Of a stretch of DNA of 31,910 bases, positions 2 through 23,467 are shown piece by piece (positions within the stretch are counted from its first letter, which is position 1; each line of letters starts with the position of its first letter). Position numbers and translations under genes: made by a program. The stretch is from a virus. Location of the stretch: the IMG/VR virus record IMGVR_UViG_3300013004_000117, positions 1 through 31,910 of that record. One strand, given 5' to 3'. The notes beneath the pieces were generated by a model. That model had not been told where the DNA came from. It saw only the letters and a list, made by a program, of their open reading frames with translations, and did not search any database.

Positions 2-781
2 GCTGCTGTAGAAAAAGCATTACCAAAACTTACAGCAAGATTAAAAAGTTTAGTAAAAGACGGGGATAAGAAAAAAAGTTTAATGCAAGAAGCTAATGAT
101 CTTGCAGCAACAGCATCCGCTGGCGTAAAACTTGTTACAGGAGGGTTTACTAAACTAATTGCAGATGCTGCTGGAAAAGCGGCTCAAACCGATGAAGCTG
201 TTTACATTAACATGCTTGAATCTGCAATGGTGTACGCAGTTGCTGAAATGATAGATGAAGGGTATGGCACCGCTAATTTGGTAAAAGAAGCTAAAGAGTT
301 TAATTATACGCTTCTTGAAAGCGATGACCAAAGTGGTGGTTTAAAAATACCATTTGTTAGTGCTATCATGGATAAGATTGCTCACATGCCGCCTTTTAAA
401 TGGTTTCATGCTATTGAAGGTAAAGTTGCTGAGATTGCCAATAACAGTCTTGCTCGCTTAAGCGCAATCGTTGCAAAACTTGATGGTCCAGGTCCATTTA
501 ATTTTGAAATCATTGGAGGTTTAATTGGTATTGCTGCTGGGTATGCTGCAGAACAACTTGCAAAAGGTGCTGTATTTGGCGCAAACGGCGCAACTATTTT
601 AGGATTTGCAATTCCAGGTGCTGGTATTCTTTACAAAGTTATTAAATATACAGGGTATGCACTTGCTATCTATGGAGTAATTAAAGAGGTAGTTGGGCAA
701 GGCGATAAAGAGGAAGAAAATTCAGATGATTTTGAAGATACAAAATCTAACAAAGACAAGAAAGAAATAGAAAAGAAGTAA
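2..781 (+). CDS. 5'-truncated gene; protein with hydrophobic Gly/Ala-rich C-terminal part, possible internal virion protein
   Basis: The reading frame is open from the left edge, so the start codon lies outside the window; a Met codon at position 83 is internal to continuous coding sequence. The visible part is 259 residues. It begins with a Lys-rich amphipathic helix, continues as mostly helical sequence, and has a long Gly/Ala/Ile-rich stretch (about nt 500-690, containing GGLIGIAAGYAA and GFAIPGAGILYKVI) that could form one or two membrane-inserting helices. The last 35 residues are a highly charged Asp/Glu/Lys tail. I do not recognise the family. Because the next genes include several with capsid-targeting-like leaders, an ejected or membrane-interacting internal protein is possible, but its own N-terminus cannot be seen. 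The gene is clearly coding; its function is unknown. Confidence 0.7.
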   Translation, partial: AAVEKALPKLTARLKSLVKDGDKKKSLMQEANDLAATASAGVKLVTGGFTKLIADAAGKAAQTDEAVYINMLESAMVYAVAEMIDEGYGTANLVKEAKEFNYTLLESDDQSGGLKIPFVSAIMDKIAHMPPFKWFHAIEGKVAEIANNSLARLSAIVAKLDGPGPFNFEIIGGLIGIAAGYAAEQLAKGAVFGANGATILGFAIPGAGILYKVIKYTGYALAIYGVIKEVVGQGDKEEENSDDFEDTKSNKDKKEIEKK

Positions 782-801: not shown

Positions 802-1383
802 ATGTTTACAAATACTCATAAAACATCAAACGATCCGTTAAATTGGTATTGGTTTGATAAAGGGTTTTCTATAGAAGAAATACAAAGAATAGAAGAATAT
901 GCACAACAACTTCCAAGACTAAAAGGAACTATTGGTGATAGCGAATCTGCTGCCGAAGAAAGAAAAAGTGTTATTCGGTGGATTTATAGAAACCCCGAAG
1001 CTGATTGGTTATATGCAAAGATGATTTCTATGGTAGACATTGCTAATGAAAACCTATGGCAATTTGATATGTTTAGCGCAAATGAAGCGATTCAATACAC
1101 TGAATATTATGATAATGGTGGGCATTACGATTGGCATATTGATATGAGTGCTGGTTACCCACTTAACCAACGAAAAATTAGCATGACTGTTCAACTTTCA
1201 GATGAGTCTGAATATGATGGCGGGAATTTTGAAATCATGCGTGGTAGAGAAGTTGAGCAATTACCAAAAGGTAAAGGAAATGTTGTAATCTTTCCTTCTT
1301 ACCTTTTACACCGAATTACTCCAGTTACTCGTGGAGTTAGAAAAAGTCTGGTGCTTTGGTTAGGTGGTGCATCTTTTAAATAA
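802..1383 (+). CDS. 2-oxoglutarate/Fe(II)-dependent oxygenase (PKHD/prolyl-4-hydroxylase type)
   Basis: This 193-residue protein has the full active-site signature of the 2OG-Fe(II) dioxygenase superfamily: HxD in GGHYDWHIDMS (His112, Asp114), a distal iron-ligand His170 in LLHRITPVTRG, and Arg180 ten residues later as the likely 2-oxoglutarate carboxylate ligand. The HRITPVTRGVR block closely resembles the YbiX/PiuC group of PKHD-type hydroxylases, and the length fits a single catalytic domain. The family couples oxidative decarboxylation of 2-oxoglutarate to hydroxylation of a protein or small-molecule substrate; the substrate here is unknown. Such enzymes are common in T4-like phages of aquatic bacteria. 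The start at 802 follows the previous stop by 20 nt and has no Shine-Dalgarno sequence. Class is confident; role in infection is not. Confidence 0.9.
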   Translation: MFTNTHKTSNDPLNWYWFDKGFSIEEIQRIEEYAQQLPRLKGTIGDSESAAEERKSVIRWIYRNPEADWLYAKMISMVDIANENLWQFDMFSANEAIQYTEYYDNGGHYDWHIDMSAGYPLNQRKISMTVQLSDESEYDGGNFEIMRGREVEQLPKGKGNVVIFPSYLLHRITPVTRGVRKSLVLWLGGASFK

Positions 1384-1392
1384 TAAATTGAT

Positions 1393-1587
1393 ATGAAAAA
1401 GTCATTTAAAACATTTGAAGAATTCATTGGAGACGAAACCACTGATTCGTTAAGAAAGAAAGCTCTTGAAGTTCAACAAAAAGACGGTGATGAAATATTT
1501 GGTGAGCCCGATACTCAAGGAAATTCAGGAGAAGATGGAAATGATGATAATGACTTTTCAGGAGATGAAATGGGATCTGTAGATTAA
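1393..1587 (+). CDS. Small acidic protein with capsid-targeting-like leader
   Basis: This 64-residue protein starts MKKSFKTFEEFIGDE, closely resembling the leaders at 1629 and 2108 and the T4 internal-protein leader MKTYQEFIAEA. After the leader there is a short helix (about residues 18-32) and then a very acidic, Gly/Asp/Asn-rich, probably disordered tail ending SGDEMGSVD. The putative cleavage position reads FIGDE rather than the canonical (I/L)xE, so processing is uncertain. It follows the oxygenase by 9 nt. By analogy with T4 it could be a small prohead-core protein or an internal protein; no enzymatic domain is visible. An AT-rich inverted repeat overlaps its stop codon. Confidence 0.75.
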   Translation: MKKSFKTFEEFIGDETTDSLRKKALEVQQKDGDEIFGEPDTQGNSGEDGNDDNDFSGDEMGSVD

Positions 1588-1602
1588 TCATTTAATCTAA
1601 AA

Positions 1603-1610
1603 GATAAATA
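1603..1610 (+). promoter_or_regulatory. Possible late-promoter-like box GATAAATA
   Basis: GATAAATA lies in the 41-nt gap before the gene at 1629 and differs from the T4 late-promoter octamer TATAAATA by one base. It sits 18 nt before the ATG. The surrounding DNA is A-rich, so a chance match is quite possible. Confidence 0.3.
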
Positions 1611-1628
1611 AAAGAAAATAGAAACGAA

Positions 1629-1976
1629 ATGAAATCACAAATCAAAAATTACACTGACTTCATACAAGAAACCGATGTTGTTGGTCATGATGAAGTAACT
1701 GCAACAAAACCAACTGCATTATCAGAAGCCATGTGTGAAAGGCTTAATAAAATGTGTGAGGCTATGTGTGAAGAAATGGAAGCTCGCCACGCTGACGAAA
1801 CAGAAATGACAGCTGAAAGCTACAGAAAAGAATGTGAAAGCAAGATTAATGAAATGTATGAAAGCATTGCAAAGGCTTGTAATGAAATTATGAAAGGCAG
1901 CTATAATGACTCTGACGGAGATATGCGCCAAGGATCAGTACAAGACGTACCAGTTATGGCTGGCGCTGTTCGCTAA
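1629..1976 (+). CDS. Small helical protein with capsid-targeting-like leader (FIQE)
   Basis: This 115-residue protein opens MKSQIKNYTDFIQETD, the same pattern as the neighbouring leaders, with an (I/L)xE-type cleavage candidate after FIQE (residue 14). The rest is predominantly helical and charged: residues 30-90 are rich in Glu, Lys, Met and Cys (Cys in CERLNKMCEAMCEEME, KECESK and KACNE) and look like a coiled coil. The C-terminus ends in a short Gly/Val/Pro tail. No known domain was recognised. Together with 1393, 2108 and 2995 it forms a run of leader-bearing genes. A prohead-core or packaged internal protein is the best guess, by analogy with T4 IPI-IPIII. Confidence 0.75.
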   Translation: MKSQIKNYTDFIQETDVVGHDEVTATKPTALSEAMCERLNKMCEAMCEEMEARHADETEMTAESYRKECESKINEMYESIAKACNEIMKGSYNDSDGDMRQGSVQDVPVMAGAVR

Positions 1977-1991
1977 GATACTTTACATAAA

Positions 1992-2108
1992 ATGTCAAAA
2001 GCTAAAAAAGAAGGTAAACCAAAAAGAAACCGTGGTAACCTAGTAAAGAGATTAAGAATGATTGAAAGCAATCGTGCAATATTACAAAAAATAAAAGAAG
2101 AAGCATAA
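1992..2108 (+). CDS. Small highly basic protein (38 aa)
   Basis: A short frame starts with ATG at 1992 and ends with TAA at 2106-2108; that stop shares its last base with the ATG of the next gene (TAATG), the same tight coupling seen elsewhere in this genome. The predicted 38-residue peptide is very basic in its first two-thirds (MSKAKKEGKPKRNRGN, then KRLRMIESNR) and ends in a short helix (LQKIKEEA). The lack of other coding sequence between 1977 and 2107 and the TAATG junction support it as a real gene. The basic composition would suit nucleic-acid binding or a packaged DNA-condensing peptide, but the function is unknown. Confidence 0.55.
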   Translation: MSKAKKEGKPKRNRGNLVKRLRMIESNRAILQKIKEEA

Positions 2109-2677
2109 TGAAACATATACACACATTTGAAAGTTTTGTCAATGAAGGACAATACATTAATGAAGCAACTGATTATGCAGTAATGCTTACCGGTGGAAGT
2201 ATTGGTGACAAATCTAGACCACGCGATGCTAAAGGCTACGCAGGAACAGAAGTCGCACCTGATGAAGAGTTATTGTCTCAAGACAAAGCCAAAGAAAAAG
2301 CTAAACGCATGAACGCTAATTTATCACCAGGAGAAAAATCTCACTACAACTTAAAATATGTAGTAGTACCAGCTAAAGACGGTAAATTCATAAAAGAATC
2401 TGAAGAAACTAATGAAGCTATTGATACCAAGTATTGGTTGGACTACAATGTCGATTCTTCAAGACCTGAAGATCCTTCTGGTTGGTCAGATAAATCAAAA
2501 GATTTCGAGGATACTTTCGAGGATGCGGTTGATGAATGGAATGCCGAGGCTGAAAGAGAATCGATGATTAAAGGAAAACAAATCGCTGATATTAAGAAAT
2601 TAGCAATGGAGTTTTTCAAAATAGAAAAATGGATATCCATTAATGTTATTCATGCAATGATTGCTCAAGAATCATAA
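2108..2677 (+). CDS. Unknown protein with capsid-targeting-like leader (FVNE...YINE)
   Basis: This 189-residue protein begins MKHIHTFESFVNEGQYINEA, the best-formed example of the leader shared in this region, with two successive candidate cleavage sites (VNE at residue 13 and INE at residue 19). After the leader there is a mixed alpha/beta segment (residues 20-100, including NLKYVVVPAKDGKFI) and an acidic, Trp-containing, helical segment (residues 107-189). A second ESEETNEA stretch occurs near residue 97. I recognise no enzymatic motif. The start codon overlaps the stop of the 38-aa gene. By analogy with T4 internal proteins it may be packaged in the head and trimmed during maturation; this is inference from the leader alone. 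Confidence 0.75.
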   Translation: MKHIHTFESFVNEGQYINEATDYAVMLTGGSIGDKSRPRDAKGYAGTEVAPDEELLSQDKAKEKAKRMNANLSPGEKSHYNLKYVVVPAKDGKFIKESEETNEAIDTKYWLDYNVDSSRPEDPSGWSDKSKDFEDTFEDAVDEWNAEAERESMIKGKQIADIKKLAMEFFKIEKWISINVIHAMIAQES

Positions 2678-2705
2678 TTAAGTAACCAATTTAAAACAAA
2701 CATAT

Positions 2706-2927
2706 ATGAATCACTGGACAATTAAAGTTCGAATTACAGAAGAAGACATGGAGACTGGTAAACTTCGTGGCAAAACAGAAACTTACCTAGTACAAGCTGA
2801 CACTATTGAGGCAGCACAAGCAATGATCCGTGAATTTTTTAAAGGCTTAACATTAGACCATGAAGTACGCAGCGTAAGTAAGAGTGGTATTACAGAATAC
2901 ATTACAACTGAATCTCTAAGCAAATAG
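2706..2927 (+). CDS. DUF4494-like small protein
   Basis: This 73-residue protein (MNHWTIKVRITEED..., with ETYLVQADTIEAAQAMI and ITEYI) matches my recollection of the DUF4494 pattern: an aromatic-flanked strand KVR, a Gly-containing turn, the core E-x-YLV-x-A, a helix with EA spacing, and a final S-x-ITE strand. DUF4494 proteins occur in Bacteroidota and their phages and have no established function; many are about twice this length, so this would be a short form. It lacks the leader of its neighbours. It follows the 2108 gene by 28 nt. The CDS call is secure and the family call moderate. Confidence 0.6.
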   Translation: MNHWTIKVRITEEDMETGKLRGKTETYLVQADTIEAAQAMIREFFKGLTLDHEVRSVSKSGITEYITTESLSK

Positions 2928-2954
2928 AAGACATTCTATGAACTTTATCTGGAG

Positions 2955-2962
2955 TATAAATG
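2955..2962 (+). promoter_or_regulatory. Possible late-promoter-like box TATAAATG
   Basis: TATAAATG lies in the 67-nt gap before the leader-bearing nuclease-like gene and differs from the T4 late octamer TATAAATA only in its last base. It sits 32 nt before the ATG at 2995, a sensible leader length. Functional status is inferred from the match and position only. Confidence 0.35.
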
Positions 2963-2994
2963 GTAATATAATTAAGAAAAAAACAAGAACATAG

Positions 2995-4101
2995 ATGAGT
3001 CTTATAGATTACAAAACATTTCTATCTGAAAGTGATAAATTTGTTGTTATGCAAGATCAACCACCTGGCAAAGGTATCGATACTTTAGGGATAATTAATG
3101 CTAATGATCCTGAAGCAGAAGCAATCATTAAAACATTAAAGAACACTTTAATGGGTAAAGCTATTGTTGAATATGTTAACACAAGATTAAATAAAGCTGG
3201 TTTCGGTAATCTACCTGCATTATCAGCTGTTATTGCAAACTCTTTTAATAAAAACTTTTCTGGTACAGCAAATGACTTAATTGCATTGGAAGGTATTTCA
3301 AATAACTTTCCACTTTCAAACAAGTTTAATCTTAGAGACGTAATGACACCATTTACTAAATATTTAAGTAACGGCTTTTTCGACAGTTTATATAATGACA
3401 CCACATTAAAAATGCCGGGTGGGTCTGGAGTAGGAAAAGGTGAAGTATTTTTATCTTTTCTTGCTGACAATTTATACAAAGGTAGTAAAGGAGACTTACA
3501 AGACAAGTCTTCAAATTCAGAGTATGAGATAAAAGGTGGGTATGGCGCCGGACAGGGTGCAAGCGGTGGTAAAGGATCAAGTGGTGCAAGAATGGGTTCA
3601 GCAGAATCTAATCGAGATGGAGTTACTCAGTTTGCAAACTTATTAAAAATCTTAAGTGATGCAACAGGTTCTCCGGTTGACATTAAAATAGGTTCTTCTT
3701 GGTCAAAAACTCAAAACAAAGATTTGGCTAATTTCTTTAATTCATCAAATGGTGGAAAAGTTTTAGGAGACACAAAATTATTCGATAGCATAATTAATTG
3801 CTTTACGCAGTATAATGTTTCTGTGGATAGCAGCATGAAAACTGACTTTACTTCATCGGCAAAATCAGCAGAAGAATTAAACAGATTCATGATGAAAATG
3901 CACATATACGCATATTGGTCTAAGTCAGGATTTAATGGTATTCTTTTTATTGACGAAGGTAGTAAAAATTGCTATCCTATTAACATCAAATCATATAGTG
4001 ATATTAAATCAGCGATTGACACTGGATCATTTGATAAAAGCAAACTTGAGTGGGGAGCAGGACAGCAAAACAGCGCAATCTCTGTTACTTACTTGGGATA
4101 A
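2995..4101 (+). CDS. PD-(D/E)XK nuclease-like protein with capsid-targeting-like leader
   Basis: This 368-residue protein starts MSLIDYKTFLSESDK, a variant of the regional leader with an (I/L)xE-type site after FLSE (residue 12). Residues 141-181 contain a nuclease-like signature: GxGxGKGE (Glu150), then GSKGDL (Asp167), then YEIKG (Glu178-Ile-Lys180). Spacing and order fit the E...D...ExK active site of the PD-(D/E)XK fold. The motif is followed by a Gly/Ser-rich segment (about residues 181-203) and a mixed alpha/beta C-terminal region. Related GKGE...KGD...E(V/I)KG sequences occur in other large phages as I recall. No signal peptide or TM helix is seen. A role in cutting DNA, perhaps after delivery with the genome, is inference; a structural protein that kept the fold is the main alternative. 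Confidence 0.6.
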   Translation: MSLIDYKTFLSESDKFVVMQDQPPGKGIDTLGIINANDPEAEAIIKTLKNTLMGKAIVEYVNTRLNKAGFGNLPALSAVIANSFNKNFSGTANDLIALEGISNNFPLSNKFNLRDVMTPFTKYLSNGFFDSLYNDTTLKMPGGSGVGKGEVFLSFLADNLYKGSKGDLQDKSSNSEYEIKGGYGAGQGASGGKGSSGARMGSAESNRDGVTQFANLLKILSDATGSPVDIKIGSSWSKTQNKDLANFFNSSNGGKVLGDTKLFDSIINCFTQYNVSVDSSMKTDFTSSAKSAEELNRFMMKMHIYAYWSKSGFNGILFIDEGSKNCYPINIKSYSDIKSAIDTGSFDKSKLEWGAGQQNSAISVTYLG

Positions 4102-4471: not shown

Positions 4472-4506
4472 AAACCTCAGGGATTTGCTATCCTCTGAGG
4501 TTTTTT
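4472..4506 (+). terminator. Strong Rho-independent terminator
   Basis: AAACCTCAG (4472-4480) pairs perfectly with CTGAGGTTT (4495-4503). An inner GGAT/ATCC pairing extends the stem, and the 3' arm runs into a run of six T (4501-4506). It separates the upstream leader-protein unit from the unit starting at 4569, whose promoter-like box follows 33 nt later. Confidence 0.9.
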
Positions 4507-4538
4507 CTTGCACAGAAAACTATGTTCAAATTAGTGAA

Positions 4539-6562: not shown

Positions 6563-7012
6563 ATGAATTTATACATTACAATAGAAGACAGATCAAAACT
6601 AAAGAAAGCGTTCTTAAATTTAAGAAAGCAACAAATTATCGTTGTTGATGAGGTAGTAGTTGACCTGGGTTATTCTATGGAAAATGTAGATGAATACTCT
6701 TCGTTTATCGTAAACCAACGCATAAAGAAAATTATAGCATCAACCGCATCAGGTAAAAAAATGCAGTCGATCATTTATATAAATGAATCTTTAAACGATG
6801 AAATCGTTCGTGAACTGGTTCACTTTTGCACGGAGCACACCCAGGTAAATAAAGTTATATTTCTAACTGAGAAAAATAAGAATGAAGATTTATATGAACT
6901 GTTTGAAGAAATCTTATTCTTCCCTACCGTTAAGAAGGTTCATATAATTGAATGTGTTTCATTTCCTGTTACCTGGTTGGATGATAATTCTAAAGATATT
7001 GTACTGGAATAA
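6563..7012 (+). CDS. Unknown protein (149 aa)
   Basis: This 149-residue alpha/beta protein has alternating hydrophobic strands and charged helices (QQIIVVDEVVVDLGY, QSIIYINESL, NKVIFLTEKN, KKVHIIECVSFPVTW), suggesting a Rossmann-like or other layered fold. No catalytic motif was recognised. It starts immediately after the previous stop and ends by overlapping the 3' end of the reverse-strand gene by 23 nt, so the two transcripts converge. It is the last gene of the left block. Confidence 0.7.
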   Translation: MNLYITIEDRSKLKKAFLNLRKQQIIVVDEVVVDLGYSMENVDEYSSFIVNQRIKKIIASTASGKKMQSIIYINESLNDEIVRELVHFCTEHTQVNKVIFLTEKNKNEDLYELFEEILFFPTVKKVHIIECVSFPVTWLDDNSKDIVLE

Positions 7013-8045
7013 CTTCTTCCTCCAGTCCACATTTAATTAAAATGTTTCTGATGCTTTCAAGTTTTTCTGCATAAAACTTTAATAAGTTTTCCGGTATGAA
7101 ATTATAAGCGCCTTCAGTTAAAGGAGCTAGTGGAAGAATACATTTACCAAACTTTTCCGTTGTTACAGTTGCAATTGGCAAGAAGGAATATGATATGTTT
7201 GTAAAGGCATCACATTTCATAACCATTACGCATCCTGATTCTGTATTGTTTTTCTGCATGTCGCTGTATGCGTTTCCTAAAGAATATGTAACAGCTTTAC
7301 CAGCCTCAAAGATTTTGCCTCCTTGAAACTCGTGTGGGTGTCCACCTATAACAACATCAGCGCCAAAAGAAATGATTTTGTCAATGTCTAATACTCGTTG
7401 GTCTGTTGGTCTGTTTGATTGTTCGTCTGCATCACCCTCAACTCTTCGGTGGATTTCAACAATGATGACATCGGATTTCTTTTTCGCAAAGTCAATCGCT
7501 TCTTTAAGCGCGGTTTCATCGTAAAAATTGATGAGCTTTGTTTCCGTTTCGGTGGGGTTATGCTGCGCGAGAACTCCCGATTTAATTTCTTTGCCATTAA
7601 CTGAGGTTGTATAATTTAAAAATGTGATATCAAAACCGTTAAGTGTGATATCTAAAAATCTGCTAATTTTTGAAGGTTTACTTGTGCCTAAATGCTGAAT
7701 GCCGTGCTTATCTAATAAAACTACTGTTTGAATAAGTCCGTCCATTTCATAATCGTAGCAATGATTATTAGCTGTAAATAAAAGATCAAATTTCCCTTTA
7801 AGGTATTTAGCAAAAATTTCGTTTGCAGAAAATCTAGGAAATCCTGTAGTTTCTTTTCCTAATGTGGTTTCAAGATTAGCTGTTGTAAAATCTAAGGTAT
7901 TCATCCAACCACTAATAAAATAAAAAGGATCACTATTAACAACGCTTTCAAGTGCACTTGTTGTGTTACAAAAGAGATCACCAAAGAAACCTATTTTAAA
8001 TGGTTTCTTTTGTTCTATAAATGAGGAAAAGTCAAGGGTTGCCAA
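6990..8045 (-). CDS. CapA/PgsA-like metallophosphatase (poly-gamma-glutamate capsule synthesis family)
   Basis: This 351-residue protein carries the ordered motifs of the PGA_cap (CapA) branch of the calcineurin-like metallophosphoesterases: GD (residues 22-23), ANLE (56-59), ANNHCYDYE (92-100), VEIHRRVEG (196-204, where the family usually has HWG.E) and GADVVIGGHPHEFQ (228-241). Length suits a complete catalytic domain. No signal peptide or N-terminal TM helix is visible, unlike many cellular CapA proteins, so it probably acts in the cytoplasm or in the virion. CapA/PgsA proteins assist capsular polyglutamate production or export, but the reaction of phage members is not established. It is the only reverse-strand gene here and converges on the gene ending at 7012. 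Its first residues (TLDFSSFIEQ) vaguely resemble the leaders to the left. Confidence 0.85.
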   Translation of the reverse strand: MATLDFSSFIEQKKPFKIGFFGDLFCNTTSALESVVNSDPFYFISGWMNTLDFTTANLETTLGKETTGFPRFSANEIFAKYLKGKFDLLFTANNHCYDYEMDGLIQTVVLLDKHGIQHLGTSKPSKISRFLDITLNGFDITFLNYTTSVNGKEIKSGVLAQHNPTETETKLINFYDETALKEAIDFAKKKSDVIIVEIHRRVEGDADEQSNRPTDQRVLDIDKIISFGADVVIGGHPHEFQGGKIFEAGKAVTYSLGNAYSDMQKNNTESGCVMVMKCDAFTNISYSFLPIATVTTEKFGKCILPLAPLTEGAYNFIPENLLKFYAEKLESIRNILIKCGLEEEVIPVQYL

Positions 8046-17928: not shown

Positions 17929-19128
17929 ATGGAACTAAAAAAACAACACACAACATTCACTGACGAATATTGGGAATTACTTAGCACTTATGGAAAATTA
18001 ATTCCTAATCCTAAATTAAGTAAGTATGGCAAAATTTTCTGTCATGAAGCTTACGCAGAAGATCTTGCAAAAATTTACGCAGGGTCAACTGATGTTTATG
18101 ATAAGGAACCGCAAGTTGGAAAAATCTATAAAGTTATAGATGTAAGAGTAGGAAATAATCGTGAATTACATGTTATTCTAAATGGGTTTATCGATGCAAC
18201 GATAAATCTTGAACAAGAAAAGAAATTCTTGGCGATGTTAGAAATAACCGAGGAAGAGCTAGTATCTTCTTTAAAAACCGAAGAAGGGAAACGTGCTTTC
18301 TGTAGTCAAGAATACCACGTTAGAATAGAAATTATTAAACCTTATGTTAAGGTATCTTTACATGAGGGCCAGTTATCTCACATTAAAAATGAGTTCTTTG
18401 ATCAAATTAAAGATCCTAAGAATGCTTATTATGGAACTATTACTGGAAAGAACCAGGGTGGTTTCATAATTGCAGTACAAGGAATAAACGGCTTCTTGCC
18501 TGGATCGCTTGCTGCCGCTAATATTGTTAGAGACTTTGATAGCATGATTGGTAAACAAGTCCCAGTAATGGTTGAAGATTATCTACAAGAAAGCAGTACA
18601 TTTGTATTTTCATATAAGAAATACCTTACACATGTATTACCTTCTAAAATTGAAGATCTTGACCTTGAAGCTAAGTACATTGGTACAATTACTGGTCTTG
18701 CTAAATATGGTATCTTCGTTGAGTTTGACGAAATCTTTACCGGACTATTGCATAGTAGTAAAATGTCACCAGAACTTAAAGAGAAGTTTAAAAACTTTGA
18801 GTTTAATCCAGGAGATGAAATTGAGTTTTGGATTAGAGAGATTACGCCAGATAAGAAAATTATTCTTTCTGACGAAGATCCTTCTTTTCGTCGTAGAGAA
18901 CTTGAAGATTTTAAAGAACAAAACCTTGGAATTATTCGTGGTGGAGAAGTTGTATCGATACAACCTTTCGGTGCTTTAATTAAGTTACAGAAAGATATAG
19001 TCGGACTAATTGCCCAAAAAGAAATTAAAATGAAGAAAAAACGATTTAATGTAGGTGACACAGTTATGGTCACTGTTGATAAAGTTTACAACGATAAAAT
19101 TTTCCTGTCACTTCCAAATGAGAGCTAA
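17929..19128 (+). CDS. S1-domain RNA-binding protein (ribosomal protein S1-like)
   Basis: The 399-residue product consists of about four S1 (OB-fold) repeats. The first, at about 62-146, is degenerate (GKIYKVIDVRVG, INLEQEKKF). The second, about 167-232, reads YYGTITGKNQGGFIIAVQG, INGFLPGSLA, and ends FVFSYKKYL. The third, about 249-315, reads YIGTITGLAKYGIFVEFDEI, TGLLHSSKMS, and ends KIILSDEDP. The fourth, about 332-397, reads LGIIRGGEVVSIQPFGALIK, and ends KIFLSLPNES. The G-x-V/I...yGaFV...GllH.S pattern is the classic S1 signature. In cells S1 binds AU-rich mRNA leaders and brings them to the 30S subunit. It has its own promoter-like box and overlaps the next gene by 11 nt. Interaction with host ribosomes is inference. 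Confidence 0.85.
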   Translation: MELKKQHTTFTDEYWELLSTYGKLIPNPKLSKYGKIFCHEAYAEDLAKIYAGSTDVYDKEPQVGKIYKVIDVRVGNNRELHVILNGFIDATINLEQEKKFLAMLEITEEELVSSLKTEEGKRAFCSQEYHVRIEIIKPYVKVSLHEGQLSHIKNEFFDQIKDPKNAYYGTITGKNQGGFIIAVQGINGFLPGSLAAANIVRDFDSMIGKQVPVMVEDYLQESSTFVFSYKKYLTHVLPSKIEDLDLEAKYIGTITGLAKYGIFVEFDEIFTGLLHSSKMSPELKEKFKNFEFNPGDEIEFWIREITPDKKIILSDEDPSFRRRELEDFKEQNLGIIRGGEVVSIQPFGALIKLQKDIVGLIAQKEIKMKKKRFNVGDTVMVTVDKVYNDKIFLSLPNES

Positions 19129-20530
19129 AAAATCATACACTAAGACAGAAATCTTAGAAAGTGCAAAACTAGGTTTAGAATTTGAGTTTTATTCTAACTT
19201 ACCACTAGAAGAAACTGCACGCTCAATTGCAAAATTTCTTAAAAAGAGAGTAGTAATTCCTTTGGCTCTGAGTAATCTCGCAGAGCCAAAGCCTCTTTAT
19301 CACTCACCAATAACGCCATCAGCAGACATATTCAAATTAGAGCCTGACTATTCAGGAGGTAAGAATATGTGTGAATTAATTACAGGCCCTATGTCTTATC
19401 GTGATGGCCGTAATGCGGTGATTAAAATGTTTGAGTGGATTAAAGATAACGGTTATACTAATGAAAGATGTTCTATACATGCTAACATTAGTATTGATGG
19501 AAATAAAATTCATACGTTGGTTAACATACCTCAATTAAATATTGCAAAATTTATTCTTGACTTTGATGAAAAACTTATTTATGATGTTTTTCCTAAAAGA
19601 GAAGAATCTGTATATGCAAGAAGTATTAAAAAAGTTCGTCCTAATAGTGTAATGTTCTATACACCTTCTTTAGAAGAGTTCACTAGATCAACAATGACAC
19701 TTCCGGCTGATGAAAAGTACTATGGTGTAAATTTCTTGAAAGCAGAAAAAGGTTATCTTGAATATCGTTACATGGGTGGGACAGATTACCAAAATAAAAC
19801 TCGTAAGATTCTTGATTTGGTAGATTACTTTATCTTACATCTTTATGAAACTCTTAACTTTGACGGATACTATTCAGAAGCTGATCGTGCTAGGTATAAA
19901 GAAATGATGGGTAAACAAGAAAAGATTTACAAATCGTTTATCAAGTACGGTGAATTTAAACAGCACTTTCCTGATGTTGAAGTTTCAATTGATATGATTA
20001 AAGATGATCAGACTTTATCAGCTGTTTGGGGTAACTTAAGAACTAAACTATTTGATCTTATCATTACTGGTGGCTTAACTAAGGGTAAATTTAATTATGA
20101 CACTGACCTTGGAAGATTTCAATTAAGAGATACTAAACTTACTAATGTTAAAGTTTATGATATTGAATTTATTGATTGTGAATTACAAGGTGTTATTAGT
20201 AGATCTTGGTTTTATAGCTGTACTATTAAAAACTCTCGTATTGATTCTTGTTATGCAATGAAAGAAAATACTTTTGATTTTTCTAAAATTGCTGACACTC
20301 CTCTGCATATTACAAACATCTGTAATGATTGTTTTATTGAAAACAAAAGACATGTCATTAACTGTGAAGTAAATAGCGGTGTTATTCGTAATGGAGAAAT
20401 TGGAAAACTTGCTAAGATTTCTAAAGAGACTATGATTGTTGAGTTAATTGAGCCTTCTGAATCACCTGGATCTTTTAAAGAAGAAGATAAAGACAAGAAG
20501 AAAGAAGACAAAGAAAAAAAAGAAAAATAA
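19118..20530 (+). CDS. Amidoligase-like (COOH-NH2 ligase) protein with C-terminal beta-helix-like repeats
   Basis: The start at 19118 gives 470 residues and an 11-nt overlap with the S1 gene stop; an in-frame extension to 19055 would lie inside that gene. Residues 15-130 match the putative amidoligase family, a branch of the glutamine-synthetase/ATP-grasp-like COOH-NH2 ligases: GLEFEFYSN (19-27), FKLEPDYSGG (72-81), CELITGPMSYRDG (85-97) and CSIHANIS (118-125). Residues about 345-430 carry pentapeptide-like, beta-helix-type repeats (LRDTKLTNVKVYDIEFIDC, SWFYSCTIKNSRI). The final 20 residues are a Lys/Asp/Glu tail. Members are thought to form isopeptide or peptide bonds; the substrate is unknown. 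A perfect 11-bp hairpin lies within its 5' coding part. Confidence 0.7.
   Translation: MRAKKSYTKTEILESAKLGLEFEFYSNLPLEETARSIAKFLKKRVVIPLALSNLAEPKPLYHSPITPSADIFKLEPDYSGGKNMCELITGPMSYRDGRNAVIKMFEWIKDNGYTNERCSIHANISIDGNKIHTLVNIPQLNIAKFILDFDEKLIYDVFPKREESVYARSIKKVRPNSVMFYTPSLEEFTRSTMTLPADEKYYGVNFLKAEKGYLEYRYMGGTDYQNKTRKILDLVDYFILHLYETLNFDGYYSEADRARYKEMMGKQEKIYKSFIKYGEFKQHFPDVEVSIDMIKDDQTLSAVWGNLRTKLFDLIITGGLTKGKFNYDTDLGRFQLRDTKLTNVKVYDIEFIDCELQGVISRSWFYSCTIKNSRIDSCYAMKENTFDFSKIADTPLHITNICNDCFIENKRHVINCEVNSGVIRNGEIGKLAKISKETMIVELIEPSESPGSFKEEDKDKKKEDKEKKEK
19260..19291 (+). repeat. Perfect 11-bp inverted repeat inside the amidoligase gene
   Basis: CTTTGGCTCTG (19260-19270) and CAGAGCCAAAG (19281-19291) are exact reverse complements separated by the 10-nt loop AGTAATCTCG. 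It is among the most GC-rich short stretches of its neighbourhood and lies in frame (residues about 48-58). There is no T tract right after it, so it is not a standard terminator. Confidence 0.75.
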
Positions 20531-21763: not shown

Positions 21764-23467
21764 ATGAATACAAACTTGGATATATTTAAAGTCAATAGGA
21801 TATCTTTTGAACAGCTATACACAGATGTAAGAGGGTATTTGACAAATAAATTTCAGCAGGTTGGGGAAGTATTTACTCCAGCAAGTGCATATGGGCAGAT
21901 TCTTTCTGTCGTCCTTGACATGGGAAAACTTATTTTTTATTACATTGAGGATAGTATTGTTGAAATGAACATCTATACAGCATCCCGTGAAACTTCTATT
22001 AAAAGTTTAGCCAGAATAGCTGGACACAATCCTACTCGCTCAATTTCTGCTAGCGGAACACTTATTCTTTCATATAGTGGTGAAGAAATTGATATGTATG
22101 GCAATACTGCTATCATACCAAACTACACAAAAATGGTTAATGAAGGAACAGGCCTACCCTATCTTATTTCTTTAACATCAGAAGAAACTCGTCTTGAACT
22201 TACAGGTAAAAATCAAATTGAAGTTAAAATTATACAAGGTGATATTGAATCACAGCAGGTAACTGCTACAGGTTTACCTATGCAATCTTTTAGCATTAAT
22301 CCTAAAAAAGGTTATCAGATTGACAATAACTTTATTAATGTATATGTAAATAATGAAAAATGGAAAGTATATGATTCTATTTATGATATACCGTACGAAT
22401 ACAACGGATTTATTGTTAAGACGGGTATTAACGGTGGATTAGACATATACTTTGGAAATGGTTACTTCGGTAACATACCAACTTTAGGTTTTACGATTCG
22501 TATTGAGTATTTAACCAATGCTGGCAATGCTGGCAACATATTTGATAATGCACAACCTAAATTTGTTTTTCTTGATGATGGCTATGATTTAGCAGGTAAT
22601 ACTATTGATCTTAATCAAGCTTTAAAATCAAGAATTGGATTACCTATTAATTTTGGTGCTGACAGTGAGCCTGTATTTTTAACAAGAGTTCTTGCTCCGA
22701 AAACTAGTCGTGCTTATGTTTTAGCAAATGCTGATAGCTATGTTTATTTCTTGGAAAAATTCAACATGTTTAGCGTTATTGATGCTTTTAGTACATTTAA
22801 TGATAATGACATAACTGACGATAATGTAGTTTACATTTTCTTAATTCCTGATGTAAATAAAAGAAAGCCGTCAAACGCAGATTATTTTAACATTCCAATT
22901 AATCTATTTTTACTTACTGAGGAAGAAAAAAATAAAATCTATAATCTAATAGAAGAAAGCGGGCAAAAAATCTTAACGACTATTAATAAAATAGTTGACC
23001 CTATTGTTAAACGCTATGTTATAAACATAAATGTTAGAGCATATGAAGGTTATAGTAAAGATGTAATACGTCAATCAATAATTTCGAAATGCTCTGATTA
23101 TTTTCTTAAAAATCGTAGACGCGATAAAGTACCAAAGTCTGACCTGGTTGCAATTATAGAAAGCGTGGAAGGTGTTGACTCAGTTAATGTGTGGTTTGTT
23201 TCTGAAGAAAATGAAACCTTTAAAACGGATCCTATTAATGCAAATGAACCACCCAAAGGTCTTGATGAATATGGTGATGTTACAATAGGTCGCGGGGAAT
23301 ATGCTCTATTCCGTGGCGGCTGGAAAGATCGAACAGGTCTTGAATACTTTGATACAACAGATGCTTCTAAACCTAGCAGCATAAATGTTATATTTGGTAA
23401 AAGTTCTGAGAATAACCTTAACATGGAACTTCACAGAATTAACGTTGATTCAATAAAAAATACATAA
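21764..23467 (+). CDS. Baseplate wedge protein gp6/GpJ-like
   Basis: This 567-residue protein starts with the pattern typical of gp6/GpJ wedge proteins: a helical dimerisation region (FEQLYTDVRGYLTNKF, FTPASAYGQILSVVLDMGKL, YYIEDSIVEMNIYTASRETS) and then IKSLARIAGHNPTRSISASG leading into beta domains. The middle has a beta-sandwich (GYQIDNNFINVYVNNEKWKV, GLDIYFGNGYFGNIPTLG). The C-terminal region contains the GpJ-type segment about VRAYEGYSKDVIRQSI and SDLVAIIESVEGVDSVNVWF. T4 gp6 is 660 aa. In the baseplate, gp6 dimers form the inner ring that changes shape on contraction. Placement just after gp25 supports the call. Confidence 0.85.
   Translation: MNTNLDIFKVNRISFEQLYTDVRGYLTNKFQQVGEVFTPASAYGQILSVVLDMGKLIFYYIEDSIVEMNIYTASRETSIKSLARIAGHNPTRSISASGTLILSYSGEEIDMYGNTAIIPNYTKMVNEGTGLPYLISLTSEETRLELTGKNQIEVKIIQGDIESQQVTATGLPMQSFSINPKKGYQIDNNFINVYVNNEKWKVYDSIYDIPYEYNGFIVKTGINGGLDIYFGNGYFGNIPTLGFTIRIEYLTNAGNAGNIFDNAQPKFVFLDDGYDLAGNTIDLNQALKSRIGLPINFGADSEPVFLTRVLAPKTSRAYVLANADSYVYFLEKFNMFSVIDAFSTFNDNDITDDNVVYIFLIPDVNKRKPSNADYFNIPINLFLLTEEEKNKIYNLIEESGQKILTTINKIVDPIVKRYVININVRAYEGYSKDVIRQSIISKCSDYFLKNRRRDKVPKSDLVAIIESVEGVDSVNVWFVSEENETFKTDPINANEPPKGLDEYGDVTIGRGEYALFRGGWKDRTGLEYFDTTDASKPSSINVIFGKSSENNLNMELHRINVDSIKNT

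Follow-up and report, generated by a model that had tools for sequence, protein, structure and literature searches.

The window analysed here is the entire IMG/VR record IMGVR_UViG_3300013004_000117, a 31,910-base fragment of a viral genome. Near its start, four plus-strand genes at 1393, 1629, 2108 and 2995 open with a common leader of the form M-K-x-I-x-x-[FY]-x-x-[FY]-[ILV]-x-E, at exactly the positions given in a preliminary description made from the sequence alone. These leaders are MKKSFKTFEEFIGDE (1393..1437), which has an aromatic-xx-aromatic-Ile core, MKSQIKNYTDFIQE (1629..1670), MKHIHTFESFVNE (2108..2146) and MSLIDYKTFLSE (2995..3030). No other complete gene of the window starts in this way, and the earlier remark that its baseplate proteins lack the leader was correct. 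Finding four such leaders among ~31 window genes has a probability of ~4e-7 at the background rate of internal methionines (10/5387). The bodies behind the four leaders gave no confident Pfam or PHROG match, and their net charges are −13, −12, −11 and +1, in gene order.

The four genes differ in how the leader passes into the body. Gene 1393 has Asp at the position usually held by the final Glu (FIGD-E), and this Asp is kept in its relative at L103 5701 (leader MKNIIKTYEEFIGDETTD); its body (1438..1584) is short and very acidic. The acidic body of gene 1629 (1671..1973) is 55% identical to G004 87623-87961, on a 126-kb close relative of the window, where a diverged leader, MKHIPTYEQFINE, is followed directly after its Glu by an identical body start, TDVVGHDE. 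Directly behind the leader of gene 2108 lies a second candidate cleavage site, GQYINE (2147..2164). The window reads FVNE-GQYINE here, and its G036/L120 relative reads FINE-ANDYAVML, six residues fewer, so the body of gene 2108 begins after INE (2165..2674; 72% identity over residues 1-101 to G036 92016-92825). The body of gene 2995 (3031..4098) is a possible PD-(D/E)XK-type nuclease, judged at motif level from a three-sequence alignment in which E150, KGDL 165-168 and ExKG 178-181 are invariant across the window and two distant relatives. Its AlphaFold model (predicted local distance difference test score 43) was too poor for use, and a single-sequence search of IMG/VR and sequenced phages returned no relative of the protein. 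A profile comparison with the PDB proposed TALE repeats for the 2995 family; no stretch passes alone, and we rejected the match as a repeat artefact. Relatives of gene 2995 in G004 and L106 have no leader at their called starts, which suggests that the leader was gained or lost in this family.

A fifth leader gene probably precedes these four. The record start cuts a gene of which the 3' part remains (2..778, plus strand), and its full-length relatives carry a leader: G004 88007-89155 (43% identity by tblastn) begins with MSLLTYNDFLLE, and L103 4547-5698 (47%) begins with MLNYTEFIIE. Members of this family have amphipathic stretches rich in lysine and are hydrophobic towards the C-terminus, and they might be membrane-active ejected proteins. 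The block recurs in relatives, and two genes without a leader are interspersed in it: a 2-oxoglutarate-Fe(II) oxygenase (802..1380, plus strand; PF13640, E = 1.4e-15) and a DUF4494 protein (2706..2924, plus strand; PF14902, E = 6.4e-8; 68% identity in G004), the latter conserved within the same block of relatives.

Relatives of the window were obtained only via its baseplate gene. The baseplate wedge protein (21764-23464) finds its best matches in IMG/VR contigs L002-L007 at 82-83% identity. It is 42% identical to its counterpart in LR756500, a 462-kb phage genome, and Lak and the 636-735-kb phages rank behind. By this protein similarity, the window phage is placed in a lineage of very large T4-like phages. 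Bacteroidetes are the predicted hosts of the five phages larger than 634 kb (PMC7162821).

Further leader genes, for which the preliminary description had proposed a search, are abundant. We scanned the window, LR756500 and contigs G004, G023, G034 and G036 with a loose form of the leader. It opens 117 of their 1722 called genes, compared with 10 of 5387 internal methionines (odds ratio 39, P = 7e-61). The 117 include three of the four window leaders; the remaining one is uncounted because the search pattern forbids the Gly present in gene 1393. The pattern undercounts more generally, as many missed homologues bear a near-leader with Trp or an extra residue before NE. The leader is found on 27 of 140 called genes in G004 and on ~26 genes in LR756500. 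LR756501, at 735 kb the genome reported as the largest known, has it on 59 of 1003 genes vs 20 of 3646 internal methionines (P = 4e-24). PA5oct, a negative control that has an S77 protease and no leader family, gave 1 of 420 genes. At least 120 IMG/VR stretches match the leader as a DNA pattern, nearly all of them at gene starts, and gene starts likewise account for nearly all of 149 DNA-pattern hits across IMG/VR. At the level of DNA patterns, Lak-A1, PTm1, MaF61, phiM12 and PA5oct show no clear leader family.

When 105 leader proteins of the window and its relatives were aligned, the consensus was MKxIxxFExFxNE, and conservation was confined to the first 13 residues. Behind the leader, mean column identity falls to 5% and the bodies are unrelated, so the claim that similarity is confined to the leader holds well beyond the window. 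Leader genes adjoin one another more often than chance predicts. Some of the genes in these tandem clusters are recent paralogues, such as eleven copies at G023 38668-48371 (loci L202-L203), nearly all with MKRI(S/I/V)NYKTF(I/V)NES-like leaders. Such clusters are what one would see if the shared start were a relic of translation initiation or gene duplication, a mobile 5' end copied for expression with no role in targeting. We regard this as extremely improbable, because what is conserved is an amino-acid pattern: the leader of gene 1629 differs in sequence from that of its relative, yet both keep the aromatic/Ile/Glu arrangement, and the body behind them is conserved. Nor did the upstream DNA reveal a common motif by eye.

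The closest known counterpart is the capsid-targeting sequence (CTS) of phage T4. In the T4 CTS, Y4 and F7 serve targeting, I8 and E10 serve processing, and cleavage follows L/I-x-E; the leader also has affinity for the prohead core (PMC9026906). The T4 internal proteins (IPs) that bear it are diverse defence proteins whose only common part is the CTS (PMC3012670). The positions conserved in the huge-phage leaders are those same targeting and processing positions; at the last of them, gene 1393 has Asp. When T4 was screened blind with our pattern, 3 of 256 genes were recovered: ipII, ipIII and 61.1. The last of these (18966-19130) encodes the hypothetical gp61.1, which starts with the capsid-targeting-like MKTFKEFIKED. 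The equivalence to the T4 CTS put forward in the preliminary description is thus supported. We consider it very probable, from the sequence evidence, that the leader serves as a T4-type capsid-targeting sequence, one that would mimic a scaffold repeat, load cargo into the prohead and then be cut off. We infer that the leader proteins are packaged, cleaved and injected, and that the window's four leader genes, or probably five, together form a single cargo cassette of a phage of this type.

The likeness concerns the signal and not the cargo. Like IPI, IPII and IPIII (CTS MKTYQEFIAE), the huge-phage proteins have a short N-terminal aromatic-xx-aromatic-[IL]-x-Glu leader on unrelated bodies, their genes are clustered, and a gp21-type protease and gp23-type capsid protein occur in the same kind of phage. 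T4 has a handful of such cargoes, whereas the huge phages have dozens, many of them recognisable enzymes or leucine-rich-repeat proteins. The huge-phage leader is usually 13 residues long with an MK(H/Y/N)I start, its bodies are often not basic, and the protease of these phages carries a fused repeat scaffold. The window bodies are not IP homologues; as proteins, they do not belong to the T4 IP family, whereas their leader, as a signal, is CTS-like by its residues. Capsid-targeting sequences with diverse cargo are already known for T-even phages (PMC3012670, PMC9026906). What is new, relative to the literature searched, is the leader's presence and scale in huge phages and its match to scaffold repeats. 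That literature, which left out most subscription literature, held no earlier report of the leader in huge phages.

Residues around the leader end show signs of proteolytic removal. We compared 180 non-redundant leader proteins. In 105 of them (58%), S, A or G directly follows the leader, whereas over the next ten positions these residues account for 333 of 1800 (18.5%; P = 9e-29). Within 8 residues behind the leader, another [ILVM]NE is 8.8-fold commoner than deeper in the protein (P = 1e-11), and control triplets are flat. A small residue after Glu and clustered spare [ILV]NE sites would be expected of propeptides. The prohead protease of phiKZ and SPN3US belongs to a different branch. Many head ejection proteins of these phages are packaged and cut by the prohead protease, and redundant cleavage sites are a known trait of phiKZ propeptides; by comparison, the propeptides there are not described as one short near-identical leader (PMC9026906).

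Most long contigs with the leader also encode a prohead protease. LR756500 encodes a gp21-type Peptidase_S77 protease (E = 2.3e-12). Of 30 long contigs selected because they bear the leader, 24 have a protease that scores above the Pfam cut-off, in 22 cases within frames of at least 577 amino acids. A gp23-type capsid protein is found in 25 of the 30, and in LR756500; protease and capsid genes usually lie 2-3 kb apart on the contigs. Contigs without a protease or capsid gene may be fragments, and one without such a call begins within its capsid gene. Like T4 gp23, the relatives' capsid proteins open their propeptide with W.P[IL][IL]E, and they share a conserved [LI][YN]E site. T4 gp23 itself has FGSFLTE-A at its known cleavage site. 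The check for a gp21-like protease proposed in the preliminary description was thus positive for LR756500 and most long contigs and negative for the window fragment. For the relatives, the presence of protease and capsid genes removes the objection that a genome with the leader might have no prohead protease.

The core motif of the leader also recurs within the protease. Protease open reading frames (ORFs) are ~580-800 residues long, with 14-residue repeats, for example SISYSEYLAENLDK, in their C-terminal region. The leader core, [FYH]..[FYHMLI][ILV].E, occurs 4 times in the protease ORF of LR756500, 15 times in LR756501, 14 in G023 and 9 in G034. By this count, the protease ranks first of 123-390 genes (at least 200 residues) in each of the four genomes, and replacing E or shifting the spacing in the motif mostly leaves 0-2 occurrences there. 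In 20 protease ORFs, the core motif exceeded all 500 shuffles, usually with a 14-residue period. A strict scan for internal matches with a position-specific scoring matrix of the leader failed to set the scaffold apart, since its units carry Y and A at positions that are F and N in leaders; the looser core motif did pick it out. PTm1 and bS21 phages share the S77 protease domain, in proteins annotated as combined prohead core scaffold and protease; the huge-phage fusion differs in its array of 14-residue repeats, whose unit motif is the leader core. This identity suggests that the leader acts by substituting for one scaffold repeat, a link of which we found no description in the literature searched.

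Leader cassettes in the window and several relatives adjoin baseplate genes. This position would fit a peptide that docks to some other component of the particle or its assembly, such as the portal, baseplate or tail tube, instead of a signal for the capsid interior. We consider such a role very unlikely: the gene that supplies the motif internally is the one for the prohead protease-scaffold and not a tail gene, the head protease is indicated by the spare sites and by the small residue that follows Glu, and the motif is absent from the window's baseplate proteins. In contigs L002-L019, a variable cassette site lies beside the baseplate genes, immediately upstream of the gp53-like gene, with leader genes that differ between relatives; at this site, the window has no leader genes.

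A capsid-targeting signal would operate as follows. During prohead assembly, the tag would bind into the scaffold core, as we propose because it resembles one scaffold repeat. The protease would then cut behind the Glu, freeing the cargo body inside the head. Cargo would be ejected with the DNA and would act in the host before phage gene expression.

Several observations weigh against this account. Neither a protease nor a capsid gene is present in the window's 31.9-kb fragment, and 13 shorter contigs of its closest relatives gave no protease match. The latter would be expected for a protease gene situated ~80 kb away from the baseplate genes, the distance seen in LR756500 (228 kb vs 310 kb). 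The Asp of gene 1393 sits at the cleavage position, where such an Asp blocks processing in T4. Net charges of −11 to −13 make three of the four window bodies acidic, in contrast to the basic T4 IPs (ipII +5, ipIII +10). G023 and LR756501 show the exact scaffold motif clearly; in LR756500 it is degenerate, and a control motif (E to Q/N/S/T) likewise ranks first there. The search pattern produced a few false positives, among them one helicase-like and one aminotransferase-like gene. Lastly, we found no virion proteomics for leader-bearing members of the lineage.

The cargo is diverse. Among the bodies that could be recognised are leucine-rich repeats, ATP-grasp ligases, nucleotidyltransferases, PAP2, polynucleotide 3'-phosphatase, CHAP and SLT wall hydrolases, an HNH nuclease and an RNA 2'-phosphotransferase-like protein. 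The majority match no known family, and sequenced phages offered no match for two of the cargo families. Many cargoes are enzymes, nucleotidyltransferases and ATP-grasp ligases among them, that could work late in the same cell, as they would if the leader addressed proteins within the infected cell, to a replication compartment or host factor, and were not a virion signal. This is very unlikely in our judgement, given the position-by-position match to T4 CTS determinants, the blind recovery of ipII and ipIII, and the co-occurrence of the leader with the S77 protease. An intracellular address would also have no need of Glu followed by S/A/G, or of duplicate sites. LR756500 has leucine-rich-repeat paralogues both with and without a leader. 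NCBIfam names that imply a type III effector function for leader proteins reflect only leucine-rich-repeat similarity, and we rejected them as a guide to function. One leader protein (L103 6256-6708) has a body, AYHTSGTKISSF...WVTANPVFAKAY, that resembles an ADP-ribosyltransferase fold by eye and has no Pfam match.

Other features of the window were seen by eye. A strong intrinsic-terminator-like hairpin at 4473-4510 (aaacctcag...ctgaggttttttc) ends the leader block and the next gene. The only sizeable minus-strand gene (6990-8045) has a TTG start and apparently encodes a CapA-like phosphoesterase; its N-terminus, LDFSSFIEQ, is leader-like, with Gln replacing Glu, and we found no relative of it among the fetched loci. 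A protein at 17929-19125 has repeated S1-like stretches (GTITGKNQGGFIIAVQGINGFLPGS); ribosomal S1 domains are reported from huge phages.

Taken more broadly, capsid targeting by the leader would amount to a general cargo-loading system in huge T4-like phages. Here, a repeat-mimicking tag would make the product of any gene packaged and injected, with ~25 to 60 effectors per particle that are gained and lost together with the tag. We think this wider proposal reasonably likely. The head contents of the largest phages would then become accessible, as a readable tag yields a list of candidate packaged proteins: 59 in the 735-kb genome, ~26 in the 462-kb genome and 27 of 140 genes on the 126-kb contig. 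The tag predicts exact mature N-termini, and proteomics is therefore a direct test. Its resemblance to the scaffold repeat would explain how so short a tag works. Furthermore, the tag marks many uncharacterised proteins that are likely active in the first minutes of infection, possibly including counter-defence proteins.

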